Of a stretch of DNA of 64,000 nt, positions 1 to 12,872 are shown piece after piece. Positions within the stretch are counted from its first letter, which is position 1; each line of letters opens with the position of its first letter. The stretch lies in the NCBI RefSeq assembly GCF_900104815.1, contig NZ_FNTD01000004.1, positions 3,550,501 through 3,614,500 of the forward strand. Reading direction: 5' to 3'. Under the pieces are notes generated by a model. The model saw only the letters and a program-made list of their open reading frames with translations. It ran no database searches and was not told where the DNA came from. The position numbers were made by a program, and so were the translations under genes. Origin of the DNA: Streptomyces misionensis. Its GTDB lineage: Bacteria > Actinomycetota > Actinomycetes > Streptomycetales > Streptomycetaceae.

Positions 1-1
1 C

Positions 2-526
2 ACCCGCCGGGTCAACGACCACGGTATGGAGATCTTTAGGCAAACGCTGAAGCTTCTCGAAGACTGCCCAGCGAACTGCCATGAGTCCTGCTACCGCTGT
101 CTGCGCAGCTTCCGCAATCGGTTCGAACACAACCTCCTTGACCGCCACGTCGGGGCCAGTCTCCTGCGCTATCTGATCGACGACACGCCACCTGCCCTTG
201 ACGAAGCACGACTCGCGCGGTCGACCGACAAGCTCTTCGAGGATCTCGATAGCCGAGAGCTCGGTATCACGTTCAAGCGAAACGTCAAAACCGACGTCGA
301 AGGTGTCGGGCCGGTCACTGCGCCCATCTTGGCTAGGGAGAGTGACCGTCAATGGATCATCGGTGTTCACAGCCCTCTGACTCCGGGTGTAGCACCGAAC
401 GACCGGTTGCAGCATGTCCAGGCAAGTTCCGGGAAGAGCAAAGTTTCGGTCCATCTGGTTGACGATTTGGTGATTTCCCAGAACTTGCCATTCGCGACCC
501 AAACCGTTCTGAAGACTCTGACATGA
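2..526 (+). CDS. C-terminal end of DUF1998 (MZB-type) protein, likely DruE-like helicase; 5' truncated by window
   Basis: The frame is open from the window edge, so only about the last 174 residues are visible. The visible part carries the Cys cluster and following motif typical of DUF1998/MZB domains: CPANCHESCYRCL, then R-N-R and LLDRHVG. This domain ends large superfamily-2 helicases such as Druantia DruE, MrfA and DISARM DrmB. The DUF4338 gene about 5 kb downstream favours a DruE-like assignment. The helicase motor would lie upstream and cannot be seen, so the family call is inference. A strong hairpin terminator follows the stop codon. Confidence 0.7.
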   Translation, partial: TRRVNDHGMEIFRQTLKLLEDCPANCHESCYRCLRSFRNRFEHNLLDRHVGASLLRYLIDDTPPALDEARLARSTDKLFEDLDSRELGITFKRNVKTDVEGVGPVTAPILARESDRQWIIGVHSPLTPGVAPNDRLQHVQASSGKSKVSVHLVDDLVISQNLPFATQTVLKTLT

Positions 527-624
527 GCCAGAACAGGACGCAAGTGACGACATTGAGGCTTGGGGTTGACCGGATTAGCCTCCATTGCCTCTCCTGCTCG
601 CACGGCAAGGGTATATAGCCCACC

Positions 625-662
625 GGGCGGCGGCCCGCATATTGCTATGCGGGCCGCCGCCC
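625..662. terminator. Strong rho-independent-type hairpin
   Basis: A perfect 17-bp stem (GGGCGGCGGCCCGCATA and its complement) with a 4-nt TTGC loop lies 99 bases after the DUF1998 stop. No U-tract follows, as is common in Streptomyces. It probably separates the helicase transcript from the DUF4365 gene. The rest of the 527-803 gap shows no gene. Confidence 0.8.
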
Positions 663-803
663 GTGCTGAAATAACGAAGAAGCCTAGCGTCACTCTACAC
701 AAAGATAGACGGAAGCACCACAAGTAAGAACCTTCTACCCTGAGCGTTACCCCTTCCTTTGTGAATCGCTAGGGCAATCGATGAAAGATACCAAAGGGGC
801 AGA

Positions 804-1370
804 ATGGCCGAAGGTGGCACTGGTGAGGAGATGGGCGAACAAGACCTTGCGGAGGGTCAGATACCCATCACGGCACTACAGGAGCACTTCAGCGTGTCGT
901 TCACGCGGATGATTGCTTATGCGGCTGGATGCTCTATAAAAACTCACGAGACCGATTTTGAGGGCGTTGACATCACTATTGTTTCTTCGACGGAGTACCG
1001 CGGTTTCTATGGGCCGCAGTTCGAGCTTCAATTGAAGTGCACCTACCAAGAGAGCTTGCTTAAAGATGACAGCATGACATGGAAAATGAAGGCAAAACCG
1101 TTTCGAAAACTAACTCGCGCGAAGCGGTATATCCCCGCCTACCTTGGTGTCCTCCTTATTCCACGCGAGCCGGAACCCTGGCTTCACATAAATGAATACG
1201 GCTTGTATACGCGTAGCCGCATGTTCTGGGAGTCTGCGGATAACCTTAGATACGACGGCCCGATCAATGATTACCACACGGTACATCTACCACGCCGGAA
1301 CCTTTTCACGGGTGAGCAGCTTCTGGGCATCATGAAGTCAATCGGCGATGCAGAGAGGGGCCTGAGGTGA
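804..1370 (+). CDS. DUF4365 domain protein
   Basis: This 188-aa protein matches the DUF4365 pattern: an N-terminal helix resembling ALQEHFSVSFTRMIAYAAG, then DFEGVDITI, then FELQLKCT. The D...D...QxK spacing resembles a PD-(D/E)XK nuclease-like core, so a nuclease-related role is possible but unproven. The end, HLPRRNLFTGEQLLGIM, is also typical. The ATG has AAAGGGG seven bases upstream. Its stop overlaps the next GTG by 4 bp, so the two are translationally coupled. GC is visibly lower than in the core genes, consistent with transfer. DUF4365 genes often sit in defence islands. Confidence 0.72.
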   Translation: MAEGGTGEEMGEQDLAEGQIPITALQEHFSVSFTRMIAYAAGCSIKTHETDFEGVDITIVSSTEYRGFYGPQFELQLKCTYQESLLKDDSMTWKMKAKPFRKLTRAKRYIPAYLGVLLIPREPEPWLHINEYGLYTRSRMFWESADNLRYDGPINDYHTVHLPRRNLFTGEQLLGIMKSIGDAERGLR

Positions 1371-2560
1371 GCCGAGCGGTGTTTGACAGCTACCGTGAAA
1401 TTGCATCCGCGCTGACTCCTCCTGCGGTCTCTCAGTTCCTGGCTTATCACGACTGGGAGCTGGAACAGAAGCAGCCGCAGGTTCGCGAGGTTTGGCGCTA
1501 CCGGTCAGGCTCATTGGCCACCGCGCCCCGTGTCATGGTCCCGCTAGCCACAGATTACGCAGATTTCACACCACGCTTCGCGGACGCGTTGGAGTCACTC
1601 GGGCATATTCACGACTGGGATGCCGGGCAACTACTGGAACACATCATCGCCACACGAGCGGACTTGTTCTTTGTCCGTCTCGATCAAGAAATGATCGACG
1701 GGACAATCCCTTTCCAGCAGGCCGAAAAGACGCTACAAGCGGTCCTCAAGTTGATGAAGTCAGCAGCGACTACTGCAGCCGATCCCAATCATCCAAACAA
1801 GGGACGGAGGCCGACAGCGGTCAACGAGTTCCTGGAAGAGGATGCAAGACTGGGGCACACGAAGCGTGGAAGTTTTGTCTTCACTGTAGTATCCCGTCTA
1901 GGCGAGGCTAATCCGCAGCCAGCCCATGGCCACGAACAACCTGCTATGCCTTTTCCACGTCAAGTCATGGAGACATTGGCCAGAGGCCTTGAGACCACAA
2001 AACGTCTGACACAGTCCTGGGACGAAGAGGTTTTCTCATCTCCAAGCAGCCTAGGGCTTAGTGCGGGGCTAGTGGAGTCGCTCGAAGAGATGTCCCAGTC
2101 ACAGCGCCTTCGCTCACTGGACTTGTCTTTCGAGTGGGCAGCGGCTGAGCGCAGGCCAGACGTTGGCCTAGCAACGATTACGCTAGACCGACAAACGATT
2201 GTTGAGCTTCCACGTGTTCGGGAGCAACTCATACGAAGGGAAGATCCCGTCCGGCGAGAAAGGCTAGTCGGTCTCGTTAAGTCGCTTATACGGGAAGGCT
2301 CGACGCCCAATGGCGAAGAGGCAGGAACAGCCATTATCGTGGCGGAGGTAAAACGAAGGACTTTGCGAGTTCATGTTCCACTGACAGGAGCGGATCACAG
2401 CTGGGCGATCATGGCCTATGAACGCCAACTTCCCTTTACGGTGACGGGCGACCTGTCCTACGAGCGCCGCACTTGGCGCCTAAGCGGCCGTATCGAGGTC
2501 GACTCGAGCTTCCTACGCCACTTTACAGGTTCAGAAAATTCCGACTCGGGCAGTTCCTAA
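1367..2560 (+). CDS. Conserved hypothetical protein, coupled to DUF4365 gene
   Basis: This 397-aa soluble protein has no domain I recognise. It has no signal peptide and no membrane segment, and is charged throughout. A mid-region with K-G-R-R-P-T and a C-terminal beta-rich part (IIVAEVKRRTLRVHVPL) suggest two domains. The GTG start overlaps the preceding TGA by 4 bp, so it is co-translated with the DUF4365 protein and probably works with it. The TAA stop is also the left copy of the insertion sequence's target duplication, so the IS landed exactly behind the gene and left the protein intact. Confidence 0.65.
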   Translation: MSRAVFDSYREIASALTPPAVSQFLAYHDWELEQKQPQVREVWRYRSGSLATAPRVMVPLATDYADFTPRFADALESLGHIHDWDAGQLLEHIIATRADLFFVRLDQEMIDGTIPFQQAEKTLQAVLKLMKSAATTAADPNHPNKGRRPTAVNEFLEEDARLGHTKRGSFVFTVVSRLGEANPQPAHGHEQPAMPFPRQVMETLARGLETTKRLTQSWDEEVFSSPSSLGLSAGLVESLEEMSQSQRLRSLDLSFEWAAAERRPDVGLATITLDRQTIVELPRVREQLIRREDPVRRERLVGLVKSLIREGSTPNGEEAGTAIIVAEVKRRTLRVHVPLTGADHSWAIMAYERQLPFTVTGDLSYERRTWRLSGRIEVDSSFLRHFTGSENSDSGSS

Positions 2561-2577
2561 GAGCTCGTAACACGATC
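2561..2577 (+). repeat. Left terminal inverted repeat of the IS
   Basis: 17 bp, one mismatch to the right end; preceded by the TAA target copy at 2558-2560. Confidence 0.85.
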
Positions 2578-2634
2578 TTGTGGATGTGTGCTGGCCGACC
2601 GTGACCAGCACGACGATTCTGCTGTTCGTGAGGT

Positions 2635-3453
2635 GTGGGGAACCGGCCGTGGATCGTGGAAAACGACTTGTGGGCGCTGATCGAGCCGCTGCTGCCGCCC
2701 TGGCCGCAGAAGGCGCCCGGCCCGAAGCCGGTGGACGACCGGCTGTGCCTGCAGGGCATCCTGTACGTGCTCTACAACGACGTCAGCTGGCAACTGCTGC
2801 CATTGGAGCTGGGGTTCGGCTCCGGCCAGACCTGCTGGCGCCGACTGGGCCGGTGGCATGAGGCCGGCGTCTTCGACCAGTTGCACCGTCTCCTGCTCGC
2901 CGAGCTGCACGCAGCCGACGAGCTGGACTGGTCCCGGGCCTGCGTGGATGCCTCCCACATCCGCGCGAAAAAGGGGGCGAAGCAACCGGCCCGTCACCGG
3001 TCGACCGCGGGAAGAGGGGCAGTAAGCACCGTCTGATCTGCGACGGCAGAGGCACCCCGTTCAAGGTCATCACCACCGCGGCCAACGTCAACGACGTCAC
3101 ACAGACGCTGGCCCTGGTCGACGGCATCCCGCCGGTGGCCGGCAAGCCCGGCCGCCCGCGGCGCCGGCCGGACGCCGTGCTCGGCGACAAGGGCTACGAC
3201 AGCAACTCCAACCGCCGTGAACTCGCAGGCGCCGGATCCTGCCGGTGATCTCCCGCAAGGGCGCCCCGAACATCCACGGCCTGGGAAAGCTCCGCTACGT
3301 CGTCGAGCAGACCTTCTCGCTCCTGCACCACTTCAAGCGCCTGGCCGTCTGCTGGGAACGACGCCTCGAACTGCACGACGCCCTCGTCTCCCTGGCCTGC
3401 GGCCTCATCTGCTGGAGACGCCTCAAGCCCGACCATGATCGTGTTACTAGCTC
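2635..3453 (+). pseudogene. IS5-family DDE transposase, two frameshifts
   Basis: The frame starting at 2635 gives the N-terminal DUF4096-type part (WALIEPLLPP, WQLLPLELG, WRRLGRWHEAGVFDQL, CVDASHIRA with the first catalytic Asp). At the A5G5 tract (2968-2977) the continuation moves to the -1 frame, which carries DRGKRGSKH and AVLGDKGYDS with the second Asp. Near 3222 one base is missing and the end (SRKGAPNIHGLGKLRYVVEQ, with the E region) is in the third frame. The first shift lies on a slippery-type heptamer (A AAG GGG) and could be programmed. The second looks like true decay, so the enzyme is probably inactive. Confidence 0.82.
3437..3453 (-). repeat. Right terminal inverted repeat of the IS
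   Basis: 17 bp complementary to the left end except at one base; followed by the TAA target copy at 3454-3456. Confidence 0.85.
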
Positions 3454-3647
3454 TAAGGAGCGGCACTTCGTCGGCACCCTACAGCGGATGAAGCAGTGGC
3501 GCCCATTCGCCTGCCGGGTATGCGCTGGGACGACATCGAGGCGAGCAGTTGTCGGGCTTTGGACGCGATCGCAGCCGCCCTAAGCTGACATTTATGACGC
3601 CTGTGCCGCCCCTCATGCCCCGCACTCGACGAAGGGACATCTCCCGG

Positions 3648-5624
3648 CTACGTGAACATGGGCAGCATTCCTTGGTCGATCGGCGGCATCCCGTCTCCAG
3701 TAGACAACGGTACCCGTGCACCATGCCGGACTGGGCGGACCAGCCGATGGGAACGCATGGACTCAAGGACATCCTGGCGTGCGGCCCTCTGCCGACACCA
3801 GCGTTCAAGCCACCAGTTGGCGACCCTGTCGTCTGCTTCAGGCAGATCGGGATTGAGTAGGTACTCCGGCTCCTCAACGATGCCGAGTGAGTAGTCCCGC
3901 AGGTTTTCGACCAACGGAACGCCGTAGAGGATGCGTTCGCGGCCATGCCTGAGCAGTTCGTTGGCGGGCCACCCAAGTGCGGCGATACCTAGCCTCACCT
4001 TCCGTAGACGGGGGCTGACTCCTTCACCGAACAGATTGTTGACTCGTACGAGCGATCCGCGTAGGGCCGAGAGTCGAACAAGGGCTTCGACGGTCTCACC
4101 GGAGAAGTGAGAGGTTCCAAAGGAGCGTGACCGTCCAAGTTCGTGGAATCCCATCCGGGCGCTGCTCTTTCCTCCCATCACTTCAGCCGGCCAGAACAAC
4201 CGGTTGTACTGGCTTGAACCAGTTCCATAGAGCGACGTCGTTCCGATGAAAGAAAGGCGAGGCTCGCGCAGGATTGGCCGGCCGGCCATCGCAGAGGCGA
4301 TCTCACTGGGGCGTGCGTACTTCTCGCGGTAAGCAGTCAGCACCCTCGGTGAGACGGCCAGAGCCCCCACGAGCTTGCCTGCCACCAGCGCGTTATAAGG
4401 TGCCACGGCGCCGCAGACGGTGAGGTCGGCGATGACGGTACCGACCCGCTCTCCGCGTGCGCGGCGTACCACGCGACGCATCTGTGCCCGCGCCTTGGAG
4501 TCCGAGAAAGCTTTGGTAAGTCCTTCGGCCGTGGGTGGAGAGAGATAGGCTCCCAAGAGGGTGACTATCTCCAGAGTCTCGGCGAGCGCCGCTGAACGCT
4601 TACTGCGAAACAGATCTGTCGTGGCCCGATCTACCCACGCATCACGTTCAATGTTGCGGACCTCGCGGATTGTGCTCGCCTGGTGGTGGCGCTGGCGGTG
4701 CCGTTCAGCGTCAGCCCGCAGTCGGGCGATCACTTCCGAGGTAGGCGCCGTCAGGTCGGTCGGTTGAAGGATCCCGTCGCGGAGCAGATCATCAACGTAG
4801 ATCTCCTCCTGCTGAATCTTGATCCGTCGGGCCAGCCAATGGGCGATGTCAGCAGTGGGCTCAGCTCGCACTTGTTCAAGAAACTGATCAGTTTCCCAGC
4901 CCATCCAGCGGTCGCGCTCGGCGATCTGGACAACCGGACTGGAGATCGCCGCCAGCCCAATGACGGTGTGGAATGCAGTGGCCGCGTCCCGGATCAAGAT
5001 TGGCATCGAGCGGCCGGGCACGGTTGCGTAGGCGTTAGACCAGGTGTGACGGAAGTAACGCCATATGTCATGCAGTTTGAACCCCGTCAGCTCGCAGGTC
5101 GAGCTGTCGACAATCTGAACGTACGGTCTGATGACGTCTGTGGATGCACCGGCAGTCTCTAGTGCGTCCGCCAGCTCCCGGCCGTCGCGCATTAGGTCGA
5201 AGATAGAGACCAGTCGACCGCCGTACTGATGAGTGCGCTCCATACTCTCGACGAAGCGCCGAACGCTGCTCTGCCTGAGTTGCTCGTCCCGACGCAGATG
5301 CTCTTGGCGGCGGACCCGGGCTTTCTCCGCCTGTCGGTCACCACTCGCCAACGGGGGCGTGAAGACATGCCCGGACTTACCAGTCTGGATCGTCCAGCCC
5401 TGATCTACCAGATCGATGGCGGTATGAGCAGCTGCCGCAAGCAGCGGCTGCTCATACAGGTTCCTGATCTTGGCTGCCTGAATCCAGTGAGCGTGAGTGT
5501 TCACATCCGTGCAACCGGGGGGAGTGCTCGCTAGCAGGGTGCAGAGACGAGCGAATGCCTGCTTCTCCTGGCGGGAAGCGTCGGCGGGGAGGCTGAGGGT
5601 AACCGGCTTGGCCTCTTCTTTCAT
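3648..5624 (-). CDS. DUF4338 protein, Druantia DruA-like
   Basis: This 658-aa protein has a C-terminal half matching DUF4338, the family of Druantia DruA. Visible motifs are PYNALVAGKL (about residues 409-418), LAVSPRVLTAYREKYARP, and GTTSLYGTGSSQYNRL (461-476). The N-terminal part is Arg-rich and helical and is not recognised. I place the start at the ATG overlapping the TGA of the ATPase gene (ATGA), 12 codons inside the longest frame, because that overlap implies translational coupling. In Druantia, DruA acts with the DruE helicase against phage, but its biochemical role is unresolved. The gene is convergent with the DUF4365 pair; the IS lies between them. Confidence 0.75.
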   Translation of the reverse strand: MKEEAKPVTLSLPADASRQEKQAFARLCTLLASTPPGCTDVNTHAHWIQAAKIRNLYEQPLLAAAAHTAIDLVDQGWTIQTGKSGHVFTPPLASGDRQAEKARVRRQEHLRRDEQLRQSSVRRFVESMERTHQYGGRLVSIFDLMRDGRELADALETAGASTDVIRPYVQIVDSSTCELTGFKLHDIWRYFRHTWSNAYATVPGRSMPILIRDAATAFHTVIGLAAISSPVVQIAERDRWMGWETDQFLEQVRAEPTADIAHWLARRIKIQQEEIYVDDLLRDGILQPTDLTAPTSEVIARLRADAERHRQRHHQASTIREVRNIERDAWVDRATTDLFRSKRSAALAETLEIVTLLGAYLSPPTAEGLTKAFSDSKARAQMRRVVRRARGERVGTVIADLTVCGAVAPYNALVAGKLVGALAVSPRVLTAYREKYARPSEIASAMAGRPILREPRLSFIGTTSLYGTGSSQYNRLFWPAEVMGGKSSARMGFHELGRSRSFGTSHFSGETVEALVRLSALRGSLVRVNNLFGEGVSPRLRKVRLGIAALGWPANELLRHGRERILYGVPLVENLRDYSLGIVEEPEYLLNPDLPEADDRVANWWLERWCRQRAARQDVLESMRSHRLVRPVRHGARVPLSTGDGMPPIDQGMLPMFT

Positions 5625-7078
5625 GACTTCTGAAGCATCCGTCCGTAGGTTTTGCTCCATACTCGCAGGAGGTCGTCGCAGTCGTGACCATCGCGGACTA
5701 GGAGGGTCGTGGTGCGGGCAAAGGATAGGAGGAACAGTTCAAGTGCAGTGCGTAGATCTCTACCCGCCTCGTCGCTCAGTGCCTGCAGGGGTCGGTACAA
5801 CGCTGCGAAGGCTGGATGATCAACGTTCAGTGTGACGTCGAGCGTGCGCCGCTTCAGGACCGACGTGAACATCGTCTCGATCGGCAGTTGCTCGGACCCG
5901 ATTCGATAGCTCAGAGCGCCCGAGCTCCTTCCGGTCGACCGGATAACGGGCAGGTCGGCGTCCACGGCCTCCGCTATACGGCACGATGTTTCTGTTGCCG
6001 CTAGGAACTTGACCTCCTCAAAGGCTTGGCGTACGCGCGAGTTCAGCAGCCGAGCGATCGACTCCAGCTCGGGCCCAAGAGCCTCTTGAAGTTCCCGAGA
6101 CGGCCGAATGCCCTGTTTGTTCACCGTGATCCCGAAGTGCTCATCAAGGATGGGATCGAAGTCGATCTCACATCGCCACCAGTCATCGTAATTTTCCTTG
6201 CGCTTCGCCCCCATGAGATGCCAGCCACTCGCGATCTCACGGCCGGCACGCAGGATGGATACGCCGGCTCCGCCGACGATGCCCATGCGCCGTTTGGTCA
6301 CATTGTCCAGGTGATGCCATTGCTGAACCGGAAGCATCGCGAACCGGACCGTGACGAAGGCGGTCTTGCCCGATGAGGTGGCAAGTTCATAGCGGATTGA
6401 CTCGAAAGCCAGCCGTGCACTACGGCCCTCGATCCTGGTTGTAAGGAGCATGGGATCGACTGAGTCGACTTGCTTCCCGTTGATGGTCAAGACAAGTTCG
6501 CCGCTGCTCAGAAAGCGTCGGTACAGGCGTCCGAGGTCACGACGCAGGGCCCGCTCCAGCCAGGCGAGGCGGCGATACTCGATGCGGTCGCAGTTTCGCC
6601 AGACCACCCGGCACCCCGAGCCTGCAGTACTGCCAGGTTGGCGGCGCGCACGAAGGTCAACTGGGGCCCCGGCAGCGACAGCATCAACGTCCAAAGAGAC
6701 CTGGTGCGCGCTCCGGCCGTTCTGCCAAGAGATCACCTCGATCCGTCGAGCCTGGCTAAGCGATGCGGCAGGCAGTCCCATGCCGAAGCGACCGAACGAT
6801 TTCCGCTCGTCGAAGCGTGACGAACCACCGAAGCGGAGGCACGCCTCAATCTCGGAACGCGACATCCCGTGACCGTTGTCCTCGACAGAGATCTCCGGAT
6901 CATCGTCTGCTTTGGTCCGCACGACCGTGATCGCGACCTCGGTTGCTGCCGCCTGGAGGGAGTTGTCGATGAGTTCTGCGAGAGCGGTCGAGAGGCTGAC
7001 GTAGCCCGACTCCCGGATCGCTCGGATGAAGTTGGAGGAGACCAGGAGGTCATCCTTCCGGTGCGTCTGCTGGCCCAT
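5621..7078 (-). CDS. GHKL (Hsp90/MORC-like) ATPase
   Basis: This 485-aa protein shows the Bergerat ATP-binding fold at its N-terminus. The N-box is ELIDNS (E35, D38, N39), motif G1 is DNGHGM (67-72), and G2 is GRFGMGLP (96-103). The remainder resembles the transducer-type domain of MORC/Hsp90-like proteins, ending in an unrecognised helical part. It is cytoplasmic, with no membrane segment. The start at 7078 has GGGAG five bases upstream; upstream ATGs at 7090 and 7126 are possible. It is operonic with the DUF4338 gene (4-bp overlap) and the 127-aa gene. Hsp90-like ATPases recur in defence islands; a role as an ATP-driven switch or clamp is inference. Confidence 0.8.
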   Translation of the reverse strand: MGQQTHRKDDLLVSSNFIRAIRESGYVSLSTALAELIDNSLQAAATEVAITVVRTKADDDPEISVEDNGHGMSRSEIEACLRFGGSSRFDERKSFGRFGMGLPAASLSQARRIEVISWQNGRSAHQVSLDVDAVAAGAPVDLRARRQPGSTAGSGCRVVWRNCDRIEYRRLAWLERALRRDLGRLYRRFLSSGELVLTINGKQVDSVDPMLLTTRIEGRSARLAFESIRYELATSSGKTAFVTVRFAMLPVQQWHHLDNVTKRRMGIVGGAGVSILRAGREIASGWHLMGAKRKENYDDWWRCEIDFDPILDEHFGITVNKQGIRPSRELQEALGPELESIARLLNSRVRQAFEEVKFLAATETSCRIAEAVDADLPVIRSTGRSSGALSYRIGSEQLPIETMFTSVLKRRTLDVTLNVDHPAFAALYRPLQALSDEAGRDLRTALELFLLSFARTTTLLVRDGHDCDDLLRVWSKTYGRMLQKS

Positions 7079-7169
7079 CGCCACTCCCATGACTTGCCCG
7101 TATCTCTGCGTCGAGAGTAGCTGCATCGACGCGGCCCTGGGAAGTAGATCATTTTTGGTGCGGCAGGGG

Positions 7170-7553
7170 TCAGGCGGGCCTGGTCGTGATCGTCACCGTG
7201 ATCCGCTTGGTCTTGGCTGGTTCGATCAAGTCCAGGCCCGTCCCATCCACCATCAGAAGACGGACGGTAGGGCGATTGGCCCCGGCGGCGAACCGATAGG
7301 GCTCGGCGGACTCAAGAAGGATCACCCGACCGGTGCGCTGCAGATCGAACGAGATGACATGGCTCGTCGTGTCGACGCGAAGGATGCGATCGACGACATC
7401 TGCCGCGGTCACCACCTCCCCCGCTAGCGCCTCTGGAGGTGGCGAAAGCGTCTTCAGCGAGTTGATGCCGAGCACCTGGAGTGCGGCGATCTTCTGCCCC
7501 GTGAGGGGTTCCAGCAGAGACTCGATCTCTGCTGCTGACTGGATGGTACCCAT
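7170..7553 (-). CDS. Hypothetical 127-aa protein, first gene of the DruA/GHKL operon
   Basis: The protein is not recognised. The N-terminal half has a helix-hairpin-helix-like stretch (LTGQKIAALQVLGINSLKTL), suggesting nucleic-acid or protein docking. The C-terminal half is beta-rich (VISFDLQ, RVILLES, TVRLLMVDG). The frame is open further upstream, but codon use is poor there. The ATG at 7553 begins the well-behaved part, although I see no strong ribosome site. It lies 91 bases before the ATPase start in the same direction, so it is probably part of the same unit. Confidence 0.5.
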   Translation of the reverse strand: MGTIQSAAEIESLLEPLTGQKIAALQVLGINSLKTLSPPPEALAGEVVTAADVVDRILRVDTTSHVISFDLQRTGRVILLESAEPYRFAAGANRPTVRLLMVDGTGLDLIEPAKTKRITVTITTRPA

Positions 7554-8569: not shown

Positions 8570-9043
8570 GTGCACGACATCAGCGCGTCTACCCGTAGCT
8601 TCCTCTCCGACCTGAGCAGCAGCACGGAAGAGCTGAAGCGCGAGATCGAAGCCGCTCGTCGTGAACGCGAGGAGATTGCCGCGCGGATCGCGACGCTCGA
8701 GATGCGTCTGGCGGAGAACACCGCGACTCTGCGCGCCATGCAGGCTTACGCCAGTGAGGCCGACGGGACACGCAACGACGAGGAGAAAGCCCGTACGGCT
8801 GCGTCCGCATCGGACCAGAGCAGCCTGACGATCGAGGAGTGCATCCTCCACGTTCTGTGCGGACGGGGAGGTCTGCTCCCGCTGGAGATCACGCGCAAGG
8901 CGGAGGCGATGGGCGTGACGAGTTCCGCCTCCAGCATCCGCGCCCGGCTGACCAAGCTGCACAAGGAAGGCACCGTGGTTCGCGACAGCCAGTCCCGGTA
9001 CTGGCTCGCTGCTGCGGGAACGGAGGCCACCAGGGACGGATAA
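8570..9043 (+). CDS. Coiled-coil plus winged-helix protein
   Basis: This 157-aa protein has two parts. Residues about 10-65 form a heptad-rich coiled coil (STEELKREIEAARREREEI). Residues about 88-150 look like a winged helix-turn-helix (ECILHVLCGRGG, SSIRARLTKLHKEGTVVRD, YWLAAA), resembling HARE-HTH/wHTH domains. The GTG start has GGGGGA upstream. It is probably a dimeric DNA-binding regulator or adaptor. It is the first of four genes reading towards tRNA-Arg, and an inverted repeat lies just upstream. Confidence 0.6.
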   Translation: MHDISASTRSFLSDLSSSTEELKREIEAARREREEIAARIATLEMRLAENTATLRAMQAYASEADGTRNDEEKARTAASASDQSSLTIEECILHVLCGRGGLLPLEITRKAEAMGVTSSASSIRARLTKLHKEGTVVRDSQSRYWLAAAGTEATRDG

Positions 9044-9220
9044 GGACTCACGCAAGCAGATCGGCCGCCGCAAGTGTCGAGCCCACGGCGGCCGTTGGCG
9101 CATCCCTGCAAATAAGGACTCACGCACCGGTGGCCAGCTTAGGCCATGCGGTCCGTTCAGCGTGAGCCCTTCCGGAAACCGCCGATCTCTTCGGCGACGA
9201 ACGGACCAAGGACCCACGAA

Positions 9221-10003
9221 ATGAAAGCCTCCTCGTCCGGCACGGCCGGACGCTCCCGCCACCGGGGCACCTCCCACTACGCCACGGCCGACACGGCGTC
9301 CAGCACGGGTGGCAAGACGGTCTCCTACCGCATGCCACCCGTCACCATCTCCGCCGACCGGCAGATGGATCTCCTCGCCGCCGCCGTCACCACCTGCGCG
9401 ACAGGGCGGTCCGCCGCCAAGATCCGCGACCTCGTCCGCGAGACTGGCCTCAACCGCGATGTCACTGCGTCCCTGCGTTTCCTGACTGACACCGGACTGC
9501 TGACCTCCGGCCCGGCCGGTTGGACCCCGACCGTTGCCGGGGCCCGCGTCGGCCGGACATGGCCCACCGACAGGGAAGCGACACGCACCCTGTTCGGGGA
9601 AGTCTGGCGCGACTCCTGGGTGTATCAGTTGCTGGTCGCCTCCGTCCCCGCGGAGACCTCGCTCAGCACCGAGGATGTCGCCAAGGCGATGCGGCCCTAC
9701 CCCACGTCCCGGCTGACCCCATGGGTCCACTTGGTGGACTGGCTGGAACTCGCCCGCTACATGGAGCGGGCCGACGATGGAACTCTGCGCCTGTCCAACA
9801 CTGTGGACAGGGACACCCGCCACTCACGTCCGAGCGACCCCGAACCGCCAGAGCCCAGCGCCGCCACCGAACCCGGTCCACAGCTCGGCCTGGTGCTGCC
9901 GTTGAGCATGAAACAGTTGGAACAGTTGAACGCGGAGGACTACGGCGCCGTCATGCGATCACTCGCCACGATCTACGACGTCCTGTCCCGCCAGCGGGCC
10001 TGA
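9221..10003 (+). CDS. Winged-helix DNA-binding protein (hypothetical)
   Basis: This 260-aa protein has a Ser/Thr/His-rich disordered N-terminus (about 1-45). It then has a helix-turn-helix-like block (AAKIRDLVRETGLNRDVTAS, RFLTDTGLL) and a second similar block near 150-210 (STEDVAKAMRP, WVHLVDWLELARYME). The C-terminus is Pro/Glu-rich and ends in a helix. I chose the ATG at 9221 because AAGGA lies 8 bases upstream; the longer frame from 9146 lacks a site. The family is unknown. It is followed by a hairpin and then the recombinase-like gene. A DNA-binding partner role is inference. Confidence 0.55.
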   Translation: MKASSSGTAGRSRHRGTSHYATADTASSTGGKTVSYRMPPVTISADRQMDLLAAAVTTCATGRSAAKIRDLVRETGLNRDVTASLRFLTDTGLLTSGPAGWTPTVAGARVGRTWPTDREATRTLFGEVWRDSWVYQLLVASVPAETSLSTEDVAKAMRPYPTSRLTPWVHLVDWLELARYMERADDGTLRLSNTVDRDTRHSRPSDPEPPEPSAATEPGPQLGLVLPLSMKQLEQLNAEDYGAVMRSLATIYDVLSRQRA

Positions 10004-10017
10004 CCACGGAGTTTTCG

Positions 10018-10039
10018 CGCCGGCGGCTGGCCGCCGGCG
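10018..10039 (+). terminator. Short GC hairpin
   Basis: CGCCGGCGGC pairs with GCCGCCGGCG around a 2-nt loop, 14 bases after the stop of the winged-helix gene. It may end or attenuate that transcript. Confidence 0.5.
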
Positions 10040-10124
10040 TCACCTCTTTGCGCGCCAGCGCTTGCACGGACGTCTTCACCTTTCCACAGTGGTGTGAACT
10101 TGCACCATCTTGGGGAGGTTCGCC

Positions 10125-11132
10125 ATGCCAGTGCCGCGCGCGCCACTACCTGACCGAGCCCTGCCCGACGACACCCGCACGCCCGCATGCCCCGCTGCGG
10201 ACACGACGTTGGAGCATGCCGTCGCGCAGGCCGTCACCCATTGGAACGAGATGACTTCCCAGGGACAGATGTCTCCCCAGACCCATCGAGCCTTCCAGCA
10301 ACTGCTGGAGCGATACGTGCGCTACAGCCAAAACCGCGGCGTAACCCTCCTCGCCGAGGCGACAGCCGACATCGCAGAGGACTTCGTCTACGCCCAGGGC
10401 CGCACCCGTCACGGCCGGATCGGCGATTGCGCCAACGCCACCCTCCACCAACGCCGCGCCGTGCTGCGCTCCTTCTACCGCACCCTGTACGACCTCGGCC
10501 TCAGCAAGGCTGACCCCACCCGCGGCATCTGCCTCCCCGAACGCACCCGCACCCGAGTCCGCCCCCTGGAGGAGGACGAGGCCATCGCTCTGCGCCAGGC
10601 CGCGGAGTACGTTACTAGGCCCAGCCGGCACGCAGCCGCAGCCGCCTTGGCGCTGTCCGGCGGACACACAGGGGAGATTGGTCACATCCGCGTCCGCGAC
10701 CTCGACGAACAGGCTGCCGTTGTCTGGATGCACGGCTCCACGCGAACTGACCCCCGCTGGTGCCCTCTCGATCCCTGGGCCCTGCGCGTCCTGAAGGCCA
10801 GGTCCGCCTTCGTCACCCGGCAGCAGTTGCGCGCCGAAGCAGCACCAGACGCCCGGCTCGCCGTCTCCTCGGCTCCGGCACCGGACGAACAGTTGCAGGC
10901 AAGGGCCTGCGTCGCCCTGGCCGATCTCCTCCGCCGAATCGGCCTGAATGCCGACCCGCACGTCAAGCCGGCCTCACTGACCGTGTACGCGGCGATGCGC
11001 CTCTACGCCGAGACCCGGAACATCGAGGACGTTGCCCGGCGGCTCGGGCTCCGCTCCCTCGACCGCGCCGCCGATCTGATCGGCCTCGACTGGACGACCC
11101 GTGGGCCGGAAGCGGGACCCGAGCATGCCTGA
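10125..11132 (+). CDS. Tyrosine-recombinase-like protein lacking the usual catalytic residues
   Basis: This 335-aa protein has the layout of a phage integrase/XerD. An N-terminal SAM-like core-binding domain (about 30-140: MSPQTHRAFQQLLERYVRYS, LRSFYRTLYDLGLSKADPTR) precedes a catalytic-like domain. The catalytic landmarks are altered. The box-I motif reads ALSGGHTGEIGHIRVRDL, with no Arg where TGLRxxEL has it. The HxxR region reads LTVYAAMRLY, and no terminal nucleophilic Tyr is visible. It is probably a DNA-binding relative rather than an active recombinase. The ATG at 10125 has GGGGAGG upstream. It overlaps the transposase-like gene by 8 bp, implying joint function. Confidence 0.65.
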   Translation: MPVPRAPLPDRALPDDTRTPACPAADTTLEHAVAQAVTHWNEMTSQGQMSPQTHRAFQQLLERYVRYSQNRGVTLLAEATADIAEDFVYAQGRTRHGRIGDCANATLHQRRAVLRSFYRTLYDLGLSKADPTRGICLPERTRTRVRPLEEDEAIALRQAAEYVTRPSRHAAAAALALSGGHTGEIGHIRVRDLDEQAAVVWMHGSTRTDPRWCPLDPWALRVLKARSAFVTRQQLRAEAAPDARLAVSSAPAPDEQLQARACVALADLLRRIGLNADPHVKPASLTVYAAMRLYAETRNIEDVARRLGLRSLDRAADLIGLDWTTRGPEAGPEHA

Positions 11133-12549
11133 TGACATCTTCCAGGACGCCCTCCCGCCGGCCCAGCGCACACCGCGCAAGCGTGCTTTCACCGAACGAG
11201 ACCGCCGCACGGTCCACGAGCGCCTCACCGACTGCGCCCACAACCCCGACCTGTATGACCTTGCCGAAGCTCTCCCGCCACCCGGCAGGGTCGGCCGGCG
11301 CCGCGCCTACCCCGATGTTGCGTTCCTGTTCTTCCTCGCCGCTCGCAGCGTCCTCGCCTCCGCGCGCCGCACCGCCGCACACCTAGAAGACCCTGAGATA
11401 TGGAAGATCTTCCGGGAAGGAGTACGCAGTGAACTCGGCGCCGAAGCCGCCCTGCTCCTCCCCGAGACCGGACCGACCCGCTCCCAGTGGCTGCACGCTC
11501 AGCGCCGCCTGCGGGACCACGCGGACGACCTGTGGGACCTGTACCGCATACTCGCACTGGACCAGGCACTTGAGCAGGGAATTTTCCCAAAAGACGAAAC
11601 TCGCTCTTGGAGCAACCCAGGGCGCCACCAGCTCATAGCCGCCGACGGAACGGTCCTCAAATCCCCAACCCTCGCCCGGGCCCACCGCAGCATTGACATG
11701 AGAACCGGAGAAATCCGCTACCACCGCATCGACCCCGCATCCACCCCACAGCGAGAGGGAGGTGGAAACGAAGCATACGGCCCCAAATACGTATTCTTCT
11801 CCGCACGGAAAGACGAAAACTATCTCTCCCAAGTCTTCCTTGACTCCCGCTACGTGCCCCATCAGCACCCAGGTGGGGAAGCCGCCATCGCCGTCGACGG
11901 CATCCTCGACATTATGGGCAGAGCCCCCGGATGTATGGGCGTCCTCTACGACGGCGCCTTCCAGGGCACCCACCGAGACGCCATCGCCCGGCGCGGCGGC
12001 CTCGTAATCAACAAACAGCACAAAGGAAACGAACCGCAATTCTACGAGACGCTCCGGCCGGGACGCTGCATTCATGAATTGTGGGCCGCTAACGGCCGTA
12101 TCGCGGAAAAGGTGTCCTTCGCCGACGGTACGACGGAACTGGTCCCGGTGCCAATCAGAAGACTGGAAAGACGAGGCACCCGCACCTACCGCTGGTACCA
12201 CGTCCTGGAAATCCCCTGCCGCCGTGGGTCCCATATCCGCCGCCTCGCCGTCGGCACCACCAGCCGTGCCGGTGAACGCCCGCCCGGCGAAAGCGACGAG
12301 GAACGCGGATTCCACCGCGCCGAGCACCTGATCCCCGAGTTCACCCGCACTCACCAACTCGTCTACCCCTACCGCAGCGACGCCGAGTCGGGTCACTCGC
12401 AACTCGACGCCTCACTGTGGAACGGGCGCCTGATCTCCTACGGCGTCGAGGCGCAGAAGCTACTCACCCTCGGCTTCGTCCTCGCCCAGAACTCAACCAG
12501 CCGCGCCCTCCACGACGAAGTGTCACCCTTGCTGAGCCCCACCGCCTGA
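11125..12549 (+). CDS. DDE-transposase-like protein (IS4-like fold)
   Basis: This 474-aa protein has an RNase H-fold signature. LIAADGTVLKSP gives the first Asp, GVLYDGAFQGTHRD the second, and a late YRSDAESGHSQLD supplies the Glu. An N-terminal helical region contains RRRAYPDVAFLFFLAARSVL and WLHAQRRLRDHADDLW. I see no terminal inverted repeats flanking the gene, and it overlaps a recombinase-like gene by 8 bp. It may therefore be a domesticated transposase or part of a composite element. The start at 11125 is favoured by the overlap and by GGAAGCGGGA upstream; 11101 is an alternative. Confidence 0.65.
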   Translation: MPDDIFQDALPPAQRTPRKRAFTERDRRTVHERLTDCAHNPDLYDLAEALPPPGRVGRRRAYPDVAFLFFLAARSVLASARRTAAHLEDPEIWKIFREGVRSELGAEAALLLPETGPTRSQWLHAQRRLRDHADDLWDLYRILALDQALEQGIFPKDETRSWSNPGRHQLIAADGTVLKSPTLARAHRSIDMRTGEIRYHRIDPASTPQREGGGNEAYGPKYVFFSARKDENYLSQVFLDSRYVPHQHPGGEAAIAVDGILDIMGRAPGCMGVLYDGAFQGTHRDAIARRGGLVINKQHKGNEPQFYETLRPGRCIHELWAANGRIAEKVSFADGTTELVPVPIRRLERRGTRTYRWYHVLEIPCRRGSHIRRLAVGTTSRAGERPPGESDEERGFHRAEHLIPEFTRTHQLVYPYRSDAESGHSQLDASLWNGRLISYGVEAQKLLTLGFVLAQNSTSRALHDEVSPLLSPTA

Positions 12550-12758: not shown

Positions 12759-12834
12759 GCCTTCGTAGCTCAGGGGATAGAGCACCGCTCTCCTAAAGCG
12801 GGTGTCGCAGGTTCGAATCCTGCCGGGGGCACCA
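12759..12834 (+). tRNA. tRNA-Arg (anticodon CCT)
   Basis: The 76-nt cloverleaf folds fully: acceptor GCCTTCG/CGGGGGC with two G-U pairs, D stem GCTC/GAGC, anticodon stem CCGCT/AGCGG, loop CTCCTAA with anticodon CCT at 12792-12794, and T arm GCAGG-TTCGAAT-CCTGC. The discriminator A and CCA are encoded. It reads AGG codons. It sits at the right border of the four-gene cluster; tRNA genes are common integration targets. Confidence 0.95.
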
Positions 12835-12838
12835 GCGC

Positions 12839-12872
12839 AAAGGCCCCGGACCGACCTTGGTCCGGAGCCTTT
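12839..12872 (+). terminator. Terminator of the tRNA gene
   Basis: AAAGGC-CCCGGACC pairs with GGTCCGG-A-GCCTTT around a short loop, starting 5 bases after CCA. Confidence 0.75.

Follow-up and report, generated by a model that had tools for sequence, protein, structure and literature searches.

A probable variant of Druantia type I in Streptomyces misionensis that carries a GHKL ATPase overlapping a long DruA

The gene cluster

Here, we describe a gene cluster that spans the left end of a 64-kb stretch of the 8.47-Mb Streptomyces misionensis genome (the window; G000:C4:3550501-3614500) and joins three components of the defense system Druantia type I, DruA, DruD and DruE, to a GHKL ATPase. On one strand, a druE operon runs in the order 963-amino acid (aa) gene, druD, druE, DUF4365 gene and 397-aa gene, and on the opposite strand, facing it, lie p126, the GHKL gene and druA. 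We regard the identity and co-occurrence of this set, namely GHKL and a long DruA, with or without p126, together with the 963-aa protein, DruD, DruE and a gene slot 3′ of druE, as practically certain, and we think it fairly probable that the cluster is a GHKL-containing variant of Druantia type I. Its features are the following, in window coordinates unless prefixed G000:C4.

G000:C4:3541483-3544374, left of the window: 963-aa gene, no family match
G000:C4:3544371-3545462, left of the window: druD, 363 aa, DruD1
1..526, + strand: 3′ end of druE (full gene G000:C4:3545426-3551026, 1866 aa, YprA-family superfamily 2 (SF2) helicase, DruE1)
804..1370, + strand: PDC-M02A, DUF4365 protein of 188 aa, by Pfam and PADLOC profiles
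1367..2560, + strand: PDC-M02B, 397 aa, by PADLOC profile; no Pfam domain
2550..3464, strand not assigned: IS5-family insertion sequence (IS) with an interrupted transposase frame, outside the system
3648..5624, − strand: long druA, 658 aa if started at the overlap and 670 aa if started at ATG 5660
5621..7126, − strand: GHKL ATPase, 501 aa, MutL/MORC/topoisomerase VI-B type, HATPase_c_3
7170..7553, − strand: p126, 127 aa, putatively related to the N-terminal domain of Fpg/Nei but lacking the catalytic N-terminus

A first-pass annotation of the window had mapped its genes, each of which lies where it was placed, and had described an island of low GC content. The cluster indeed has a GC content of ~0.55-0.68, with shoulders of 0.65-0.69 and values of mostly 0.70-0.76 farther out.

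Relation to Druantia type I

The DUF1998 tail at the edge of the window had been read as DruE-like and the DUF4338 protein as DruA-like, and both readings proved correct. Taken alone, the DUF1998/MZB tail (2-526) stays under the Pfam cut-off (0.0012) and matches the PADLOC profile DruE1 at 1.4e-28. Extending the DNA leftwards, which had been suggested as a way to confirm the helicase motor, gives a full product of 1866 aa that contains the domains DEAD, Helicase_C and MZB, and DruE1 matches it with 2020 bits over the 1853 aa scanned, ruling out that the upstream part of this gene is something other than a helicase. DruA/DUF4338 (3648-5660) is matched by Pfam at 2.2e-24 and by DruA1 (PDLC00001) with 952 bits, and DruD1 reaches 4.8e-110 on a 289-aa piece of DruD and 1.5e-132 on the whole gene in the genome search. 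Because the PADLOC profiles call DruA1, DruD1 and DruE1 alike, we relate the cluster to type I. The proposal of a possible undescribed Druantia variant thus stands as to its Druantia kinship and the membership of the ATPase, and is corrected in that the relative is Druantia type I.

According to PMC7251935, Druantia type I comprises druA-E, where druB, druC and druD have no assigned function, and the ATPase lies outside that gene list, as had been claimed for Druantia types I-III. Compared with the type I system of Pseudomonas putida plasmid pKF715A (DruA-B-C-D-E), the cluster shares the DruA1, DruD1 and DruE1 families and the link between DruA and DruE. It differs in having the 963-aa family where DruB and DruC were not found, in its long DruA, in the added GHKL, p126 and gene slot, and in its convergent arrangement. 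The 963-aa family itself recurs in the Druantia of Nitrosococcus pNWAT01 (DruA of 410 aa, a 955-aa protein, DruD and DruE), to which it is 27% identical (1e-96) and with which DruD and DruE are also common; the DruA of that system is short, and over 27 kb neither the GHKL nor the p126 profile matched.

The GHKL ATPase

HATPase_c_3 matches the product of 5621-7126 at 1.2e-26. MzaB of the MZA system is the nearest named GHKL family, yet its score of 103.2 bits is far under the cut-off of 850 bits. Among solved structures, a profile of 48 GHKL sequences matches MORC2 (the best, at 2.6e-7), PMS2/MutL and topoisomerase VI-B, all of these matches spanning the GHKL part only, and the ATP-binding residues E51, D54, N55, D83, G85, G87, G112, G115 and G117 are invariant in the 48 sequences. 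The ATGA junction that had been noted between the ATPase gene and the DUF4338 gene is present as a four-base overlap of the GHKL stop with the 658-aa DruA frame (5624-5621), and in every one of the 24 loci introduced below the GHKL stop forms a four-base overlap with a start-like triplet (21 ATGA, 2 GTGA, 1 TTGA).

An arrangement of this kind is found in the MORC/paraMORC restriction operons, which, according to the main text of PMC2292703, likewise group a GHKL ATPase with an SF2 helicase and a nuclease of the restriction fold. The helicase of the present cluster is DruE and the overlapping partner of the ATPase is DruA; that main text does not contain the words DUF1998, GNAT, acetyltransferase or glycosylase. 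As to the ATPase itself, the ATP-binding motifs are intact here.

Conservation of the gene set

The comparison covers 24 loci (the window, L002-L020, L047, L051, L053 and L056), some of which end inside the cluster. Duplicates were counted once (L046 = L012, L052 = L003, L054 = L002, L055 = L008, L057 = L018). The 24 do not include L048-L050, L060, which gave no match, or L058 and L059, where a divergent DruA stands with SspF-like genes. A gene-neighborhood survey had been recommended by the first-pass annotation, and it finds GHKL together with DruA, DruD, DruE and the 963-aa gene in 24/24 loci, with the two halves convergent, as had been noted for the window, in 23. Nineteen of the relatives, nine from Streptomyces and ten from other actinobacteria, were found through DruA; in all 19, the GHKL gene immediately precedes druA, with DruE and DruD farther on, and the 963-aa gene is visible in 18, L018 ending there and the longer L057 having the gene. 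In L018/L057, druA is broken into two frames with internal stops, and the remaining genes of the set are present.

Because the loci had mostly been picked by DruA, we searched in reverse with DruD1. Among 392 Streptomyces genomes it matched 7, and among 396 from across the phylum it matched 3; these are the very genomes with a strong long-DruA match, and GHKL adjoins druA in all nine distinct DruD1 genomes. DruD1 is absent from six more genomes in which DruA is matched weakly (E 6e-4 to 1e-34). A class sample of 394 gave three strong and three weak DruA matches in the DruA search, the DruD1 comparison covering the Streptomyces and phylum samples. L047, from another class of the phylum, has GHKL, druA, a 955-aa gene, druD, druE and PDDEXK_1 in the same direction as one predicted operon, with overlaps of four bases between GHKL and druA and between druE and the nuclease gene in the first-start open reading frames; p126 was not found in this locus. 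Pairwise distances correlate at r 0.98 for GHKL and DruA, 0.98 for the 963-aa protein and DruD, and 0.92 for DruE with its own half, and across the halves the GHKL-DruE correlation of 0.86 was not reached in any of 2000 permutations. The 24-locus co-occurrence, the DruD1 search, the distance correlations and the L047 operon rule out GHKL as a chance neighbor.

The unit is not the one first drawn. Its six named genes included the DUF4365 and 397-aa genes, which turn out to be an optional PDC-M02 pair (14/24 loci), and its boundaries were too narrow, as the unit extends beyond the window to DruD and the 963-aa gene.

DruA and its partners elsewhere

DruA-branch proteins are common (2309 matches, of which the best 120 were considered; the other protein searches likewise took the best 120, of 1924 and of 776 matches). 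The GHKL-DruA pair occurs on alphaproteobacterial plasmids, with DruE downstream in Leisingera and Paracoccus. In Leisingera (L029:18069-20537), DruE is followed by a NERD-helicase-like protein and a weak DruD1 gene (9.3e-4), which is another downstream arrangement. On the Roseivivax THAF30 plasmid (L028:3211-8762), two different GHKL genes stand before DruA and adjoin a RES/Xre toxin-antitoxin-like pair.

SspF-like sequence accompanies a long DruA that has no GHKL partner on four haloarchaeal plasmids, in Hymenobacter and in two Streptomyces. DruE is on three of the haloarchaeal records and was not found on the Halobaculum or Hymenobacter records or in 20 kb of the two Streptomyces. SspG-like genes are matched in haloarchaea and weakly in L058, and FtsK genes occur in several of these loci, which in their SspF part resemble DndFGH/SspFGH systems. 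Unlike the Druantia variant described here, they gave no match to the GHKL profile in their DNA. The Hymenobacter plasmid (L030:9167-12325) has a 1052-aa gene that joins DruA and SspF-like parts, with an FtsK gene downstream. Both SspF-associated Streptomyces loci have p126 relatives of 38-39% identity: L058:9657-12493 and L059:7335-17888 combine a divergent long DruA, a p126 relative and a weakly SspF-like gene, with FtsK in L059, and thus give DruA and p126 other partners. Given these contexts across plasmids, haloarchaea, Hymenobacter, Streptomyces, Nitrosococcus and P. putida, DruA looks like a portable piece, and GHKL like the partner of the long DruA in this branch.

Three further searches gave no relatives: tblastn found no match to DruA in phages, a DNA search found no match to Druantia I in Escherichia coli genomes, and a search for relatives of DruA in the PDB led nowhere. 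A DruA-like structure has been reported in six Synechococcus phages (PMC12774648), and such phage structures would suit a DNA-modifying role of DruA without demonstrating one.

The gene slot and p126

In the slot 3′ of druE, the DUF4365 protein (804-1370) is matched by Pfam at 2.2e-9 and by PADLOC as PDC-M02A (1.4e-82), and the 397-aa protein as PDC-M02B (6.8e-175), so that both profiles of the PDC-M02 system are matched. In our reading, a D...QLK pattern in the window DUF4365 protein resembles PD-(D/E)XK sites. Across the 24 loci, the slot holds PDC-M02A/B in 14 (Streptomyces and Kitasatospora), PDDEXK_1 in 8 and neither in 2 (L016, L017), and PDC-M02 never accompanies a complete PDDEXK_1 (0/24). 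The PDDEXK_1 open frames of ~411-439 aa were located by tblastn, and all five of the eight that were submitted to Pfam matched; judged by sequence, this PD-(D/E)XK protein is RecB/Cas4-like. Six Streptomyces loci show short N-terminal PD-(D/E)XK matches 3′ of druE, which are only suggestive of a decayed stub and from which we claim none, because much of the matching stretch overlaps the end of druE. PMC12458937 predicts that the nuclease domain at the C-terminus of type I DruE is inactive and reports an inactivated homologue of CnuB in types I and II; since the DruE nuclease is predicted inactive, a slot nuclease acting in trans would meet the need.

p126 occurs in 20 of the 24 loci. The 126/127-aa window protein searched alone has no Pfam match, and PF01149 is reached by 12 of 20 p126 members, the window copy not among them, at a best value of 1.7e-6 (permissive limit 10). 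A p126 profile matches one of the four Fpg/Nei proteins of the genome at 1.1e-14 (four targets) with 42.6 bits, where 2000 shuffles scored at most 8.8 bits. Against a relation to Fpg/Nei, three p126 members run alone at E 0.01 had no Pfam match, the other three Fpg/Nei proteins of the genome (0.17-0.66) did not match p126, and the profile-profile probability is just 19.6%, with controls at 0.1%. On these profile matches we take p126 to be a relative of the Fpg/Nei N-terminal domain. Compared with the genome's own glycosylases, the 20 aligned members (~124-128 aa) have no Pro-Glu start and end after the N-domain, and for these reasons p126 is probably a binder, not a cutter.

Discussion

We propose, tentatively and as a quite possible scheme, the following division of labor among the components. 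DruE would be the motor that loads onto and unwinds invading DNA. The GHKL ATPase, working together with DruA, may close on this DNA as an ATP-gated dimer clamp or loop, comparable to the DNA looping that PMC2292703 proposed for MORC/paraMORC ATPases encoded in restriction operons. DruA and p126 would supply recognition or marking, the presumably glycosylase-derived p126 being able to bind but hardly to excise, and the slot protein would make the cut.

Several observations weigh against a single type I-like system. No DruB or DruC profile matched any of ten window proteins or the 963-aa protein, and the 963-aa family has no profile similarity to P. putida DruB or DruC, a weak comparison with single-sequence targets that also leaves a DruB-DruC fusion as the identity of the 963-aa protein unsupported. 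Without DruB and DruC, the cluster lacks a defining part of type I, and we do not call the cluster plain Druantia type I because it has the DruA, DruD and DruE of that type but not the other two. p126 is absent from 4/24 loci, the 19 relatives were selected by DruA, and the distance correlations are higher within the halves (0.92-0.98) than between them (0.86-0.91), part of which shared host history may explain because they were computed without a host tree. The first-pass annotation had held that a GHKL/DruA pair recurring without a DUF1998 helicase would speak against its reading, and such a pair does occur in the two GHKL genes and DruA of the Roseivivax THAF30 plasmid, which has no DruE on the plasmid record (the chromosome and the near-identical THAF40 plasmid being outside the search), while Leisingera, Paracoccus and the 24 loci have DruE; the pair is therefore partly independent. 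In genome G382, GHKL stands with a short DruA and no DruE in 16 kb, a contig end lying 1.2 kb upstream. These last two cases, the convergence and greater internal coherence of the halves, and the company that long DruA, and in two Streptomyces also a p126 relative, keeps with SspF- and FtsK-like genes would all be expected if GHKL-DruA(-p126) were a complete defense module beside a separate 963-aa-DruD-DruE Druantia module. We consider two adjacent systems rather unlikely, in that DruD1 and strong long DruA never occur apart in a genome of the two samples searched both ways, the genes of L047 form a single predicted operon, DruE also lies downstream in Leisingera and Paracoccus, and Druantia I of other phyla likewise links DruA with DruE.

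A further explanation would make DruA a protein-acetylating effector that arrests growth, with DruE and GHKL as sensors. PMC10853773 interprets DUF4338 as a GNAT acetyltransferase domain and suggests that the GNAT domains in DndF may be suicidal effectors that target proteins. When the DruA profile was compared with 30 GNAT proteins from its own genome, the probability was at most 0.4%, no better than for control profiles, so that a GNAT fold is not supported by this comparison, which had no positive control, and we think the effector role improbable. Very improbable, in our view, is that the cluster is an ordinary Druantia type I in which GHKL is DruB under another name. The 501 aa of GHKL are close to the 504 positions of one DruB profile, but no DruB profile matches it at E up to 1, and P. 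putida DruB matches the DruB profiles and adjoins DruC. The DruB profile PDLC00004 found nothing in the genome and nothing in control genomes either, a weak search.

Doubtful as well is a more specific scheme, in which the long DruA would be a portable self-marking or base-modifying enzyme whose mark p126 reads, GHKL as a clamp and DruE (elsewhere SspFGH-like proteins) restricting unmarked DNA. The Mom protein of phage Mu is a model for a GNAT-like base-modifying enzyme. If marking were true, Druantia type I would belong to the modification-restriction systems, with a non-methyl modification and a MORC-type ATPase.

Returning to the GHKL-containing variant of Druantia type I, the open literature searched gave no description of GHKL in Druantia or of Druantia with a GNAT acetyltransferase, the original Druantia description lying outside that scope, and the composition of the cluster appears undescribed. 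The proteins themselves are known, since DruA-branch matches are numerous and PADLOC DruA1 covers the branch. No mechanism for Druantia type I was found in the literature searched, and the variant adds readable chemistry in the form of a GHKL ATPase with intact motifs overlapping druA, a putatively glycosylase-derived domain and a slot filled in two unrelated ways. It thereby offers testable handles on the role of DruA, ties Druantia to the MORC/paraMORC ATPases found in restriction operons, and provides a setting for the PDC-M02 pair, so far catalogued without an explanation.

Flanking DNA and mobility

The cluster is ~94% identical to that of Streptomyces ardesiacus (L002), and the similarity ends at 12872, just past a tRNA-Arg gene (12759-12834). 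A tyrosine-recombinase-like gene precedes the tRNA-Arg end of the shared region, and an empty-site search found the tRNA-Arg conserved in relatives and its flank not. By sequence, these features fit an element inserted at tRNA-Arg. The nearby IS that had been taken as a sign of a mobile island is present, with inverted repeats at 2550-2580 and 3434-3464, and is not conserved; its absence from L002 leads us to reject it as part of the system.

Between the cluster and the tRNA, 8570-9043 encodes a 157-aa protein with weak coiled-coil-type matches (96% identical in L002), and 9146-12549 contains genes of 285 aa, 340 aa (the tyrosine-recombinase-like one) and 474-482 aa that lead to tRNA-Arg and are 91-94% identical in S. 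ardesiacus; the 285-aa and 474-482-aa proteins have no Pfam match. RHS-repeat proteins (L022:13641-16505 and L021:788-2962), one of them with a WXG100-like part, lie directly left of the cluster.

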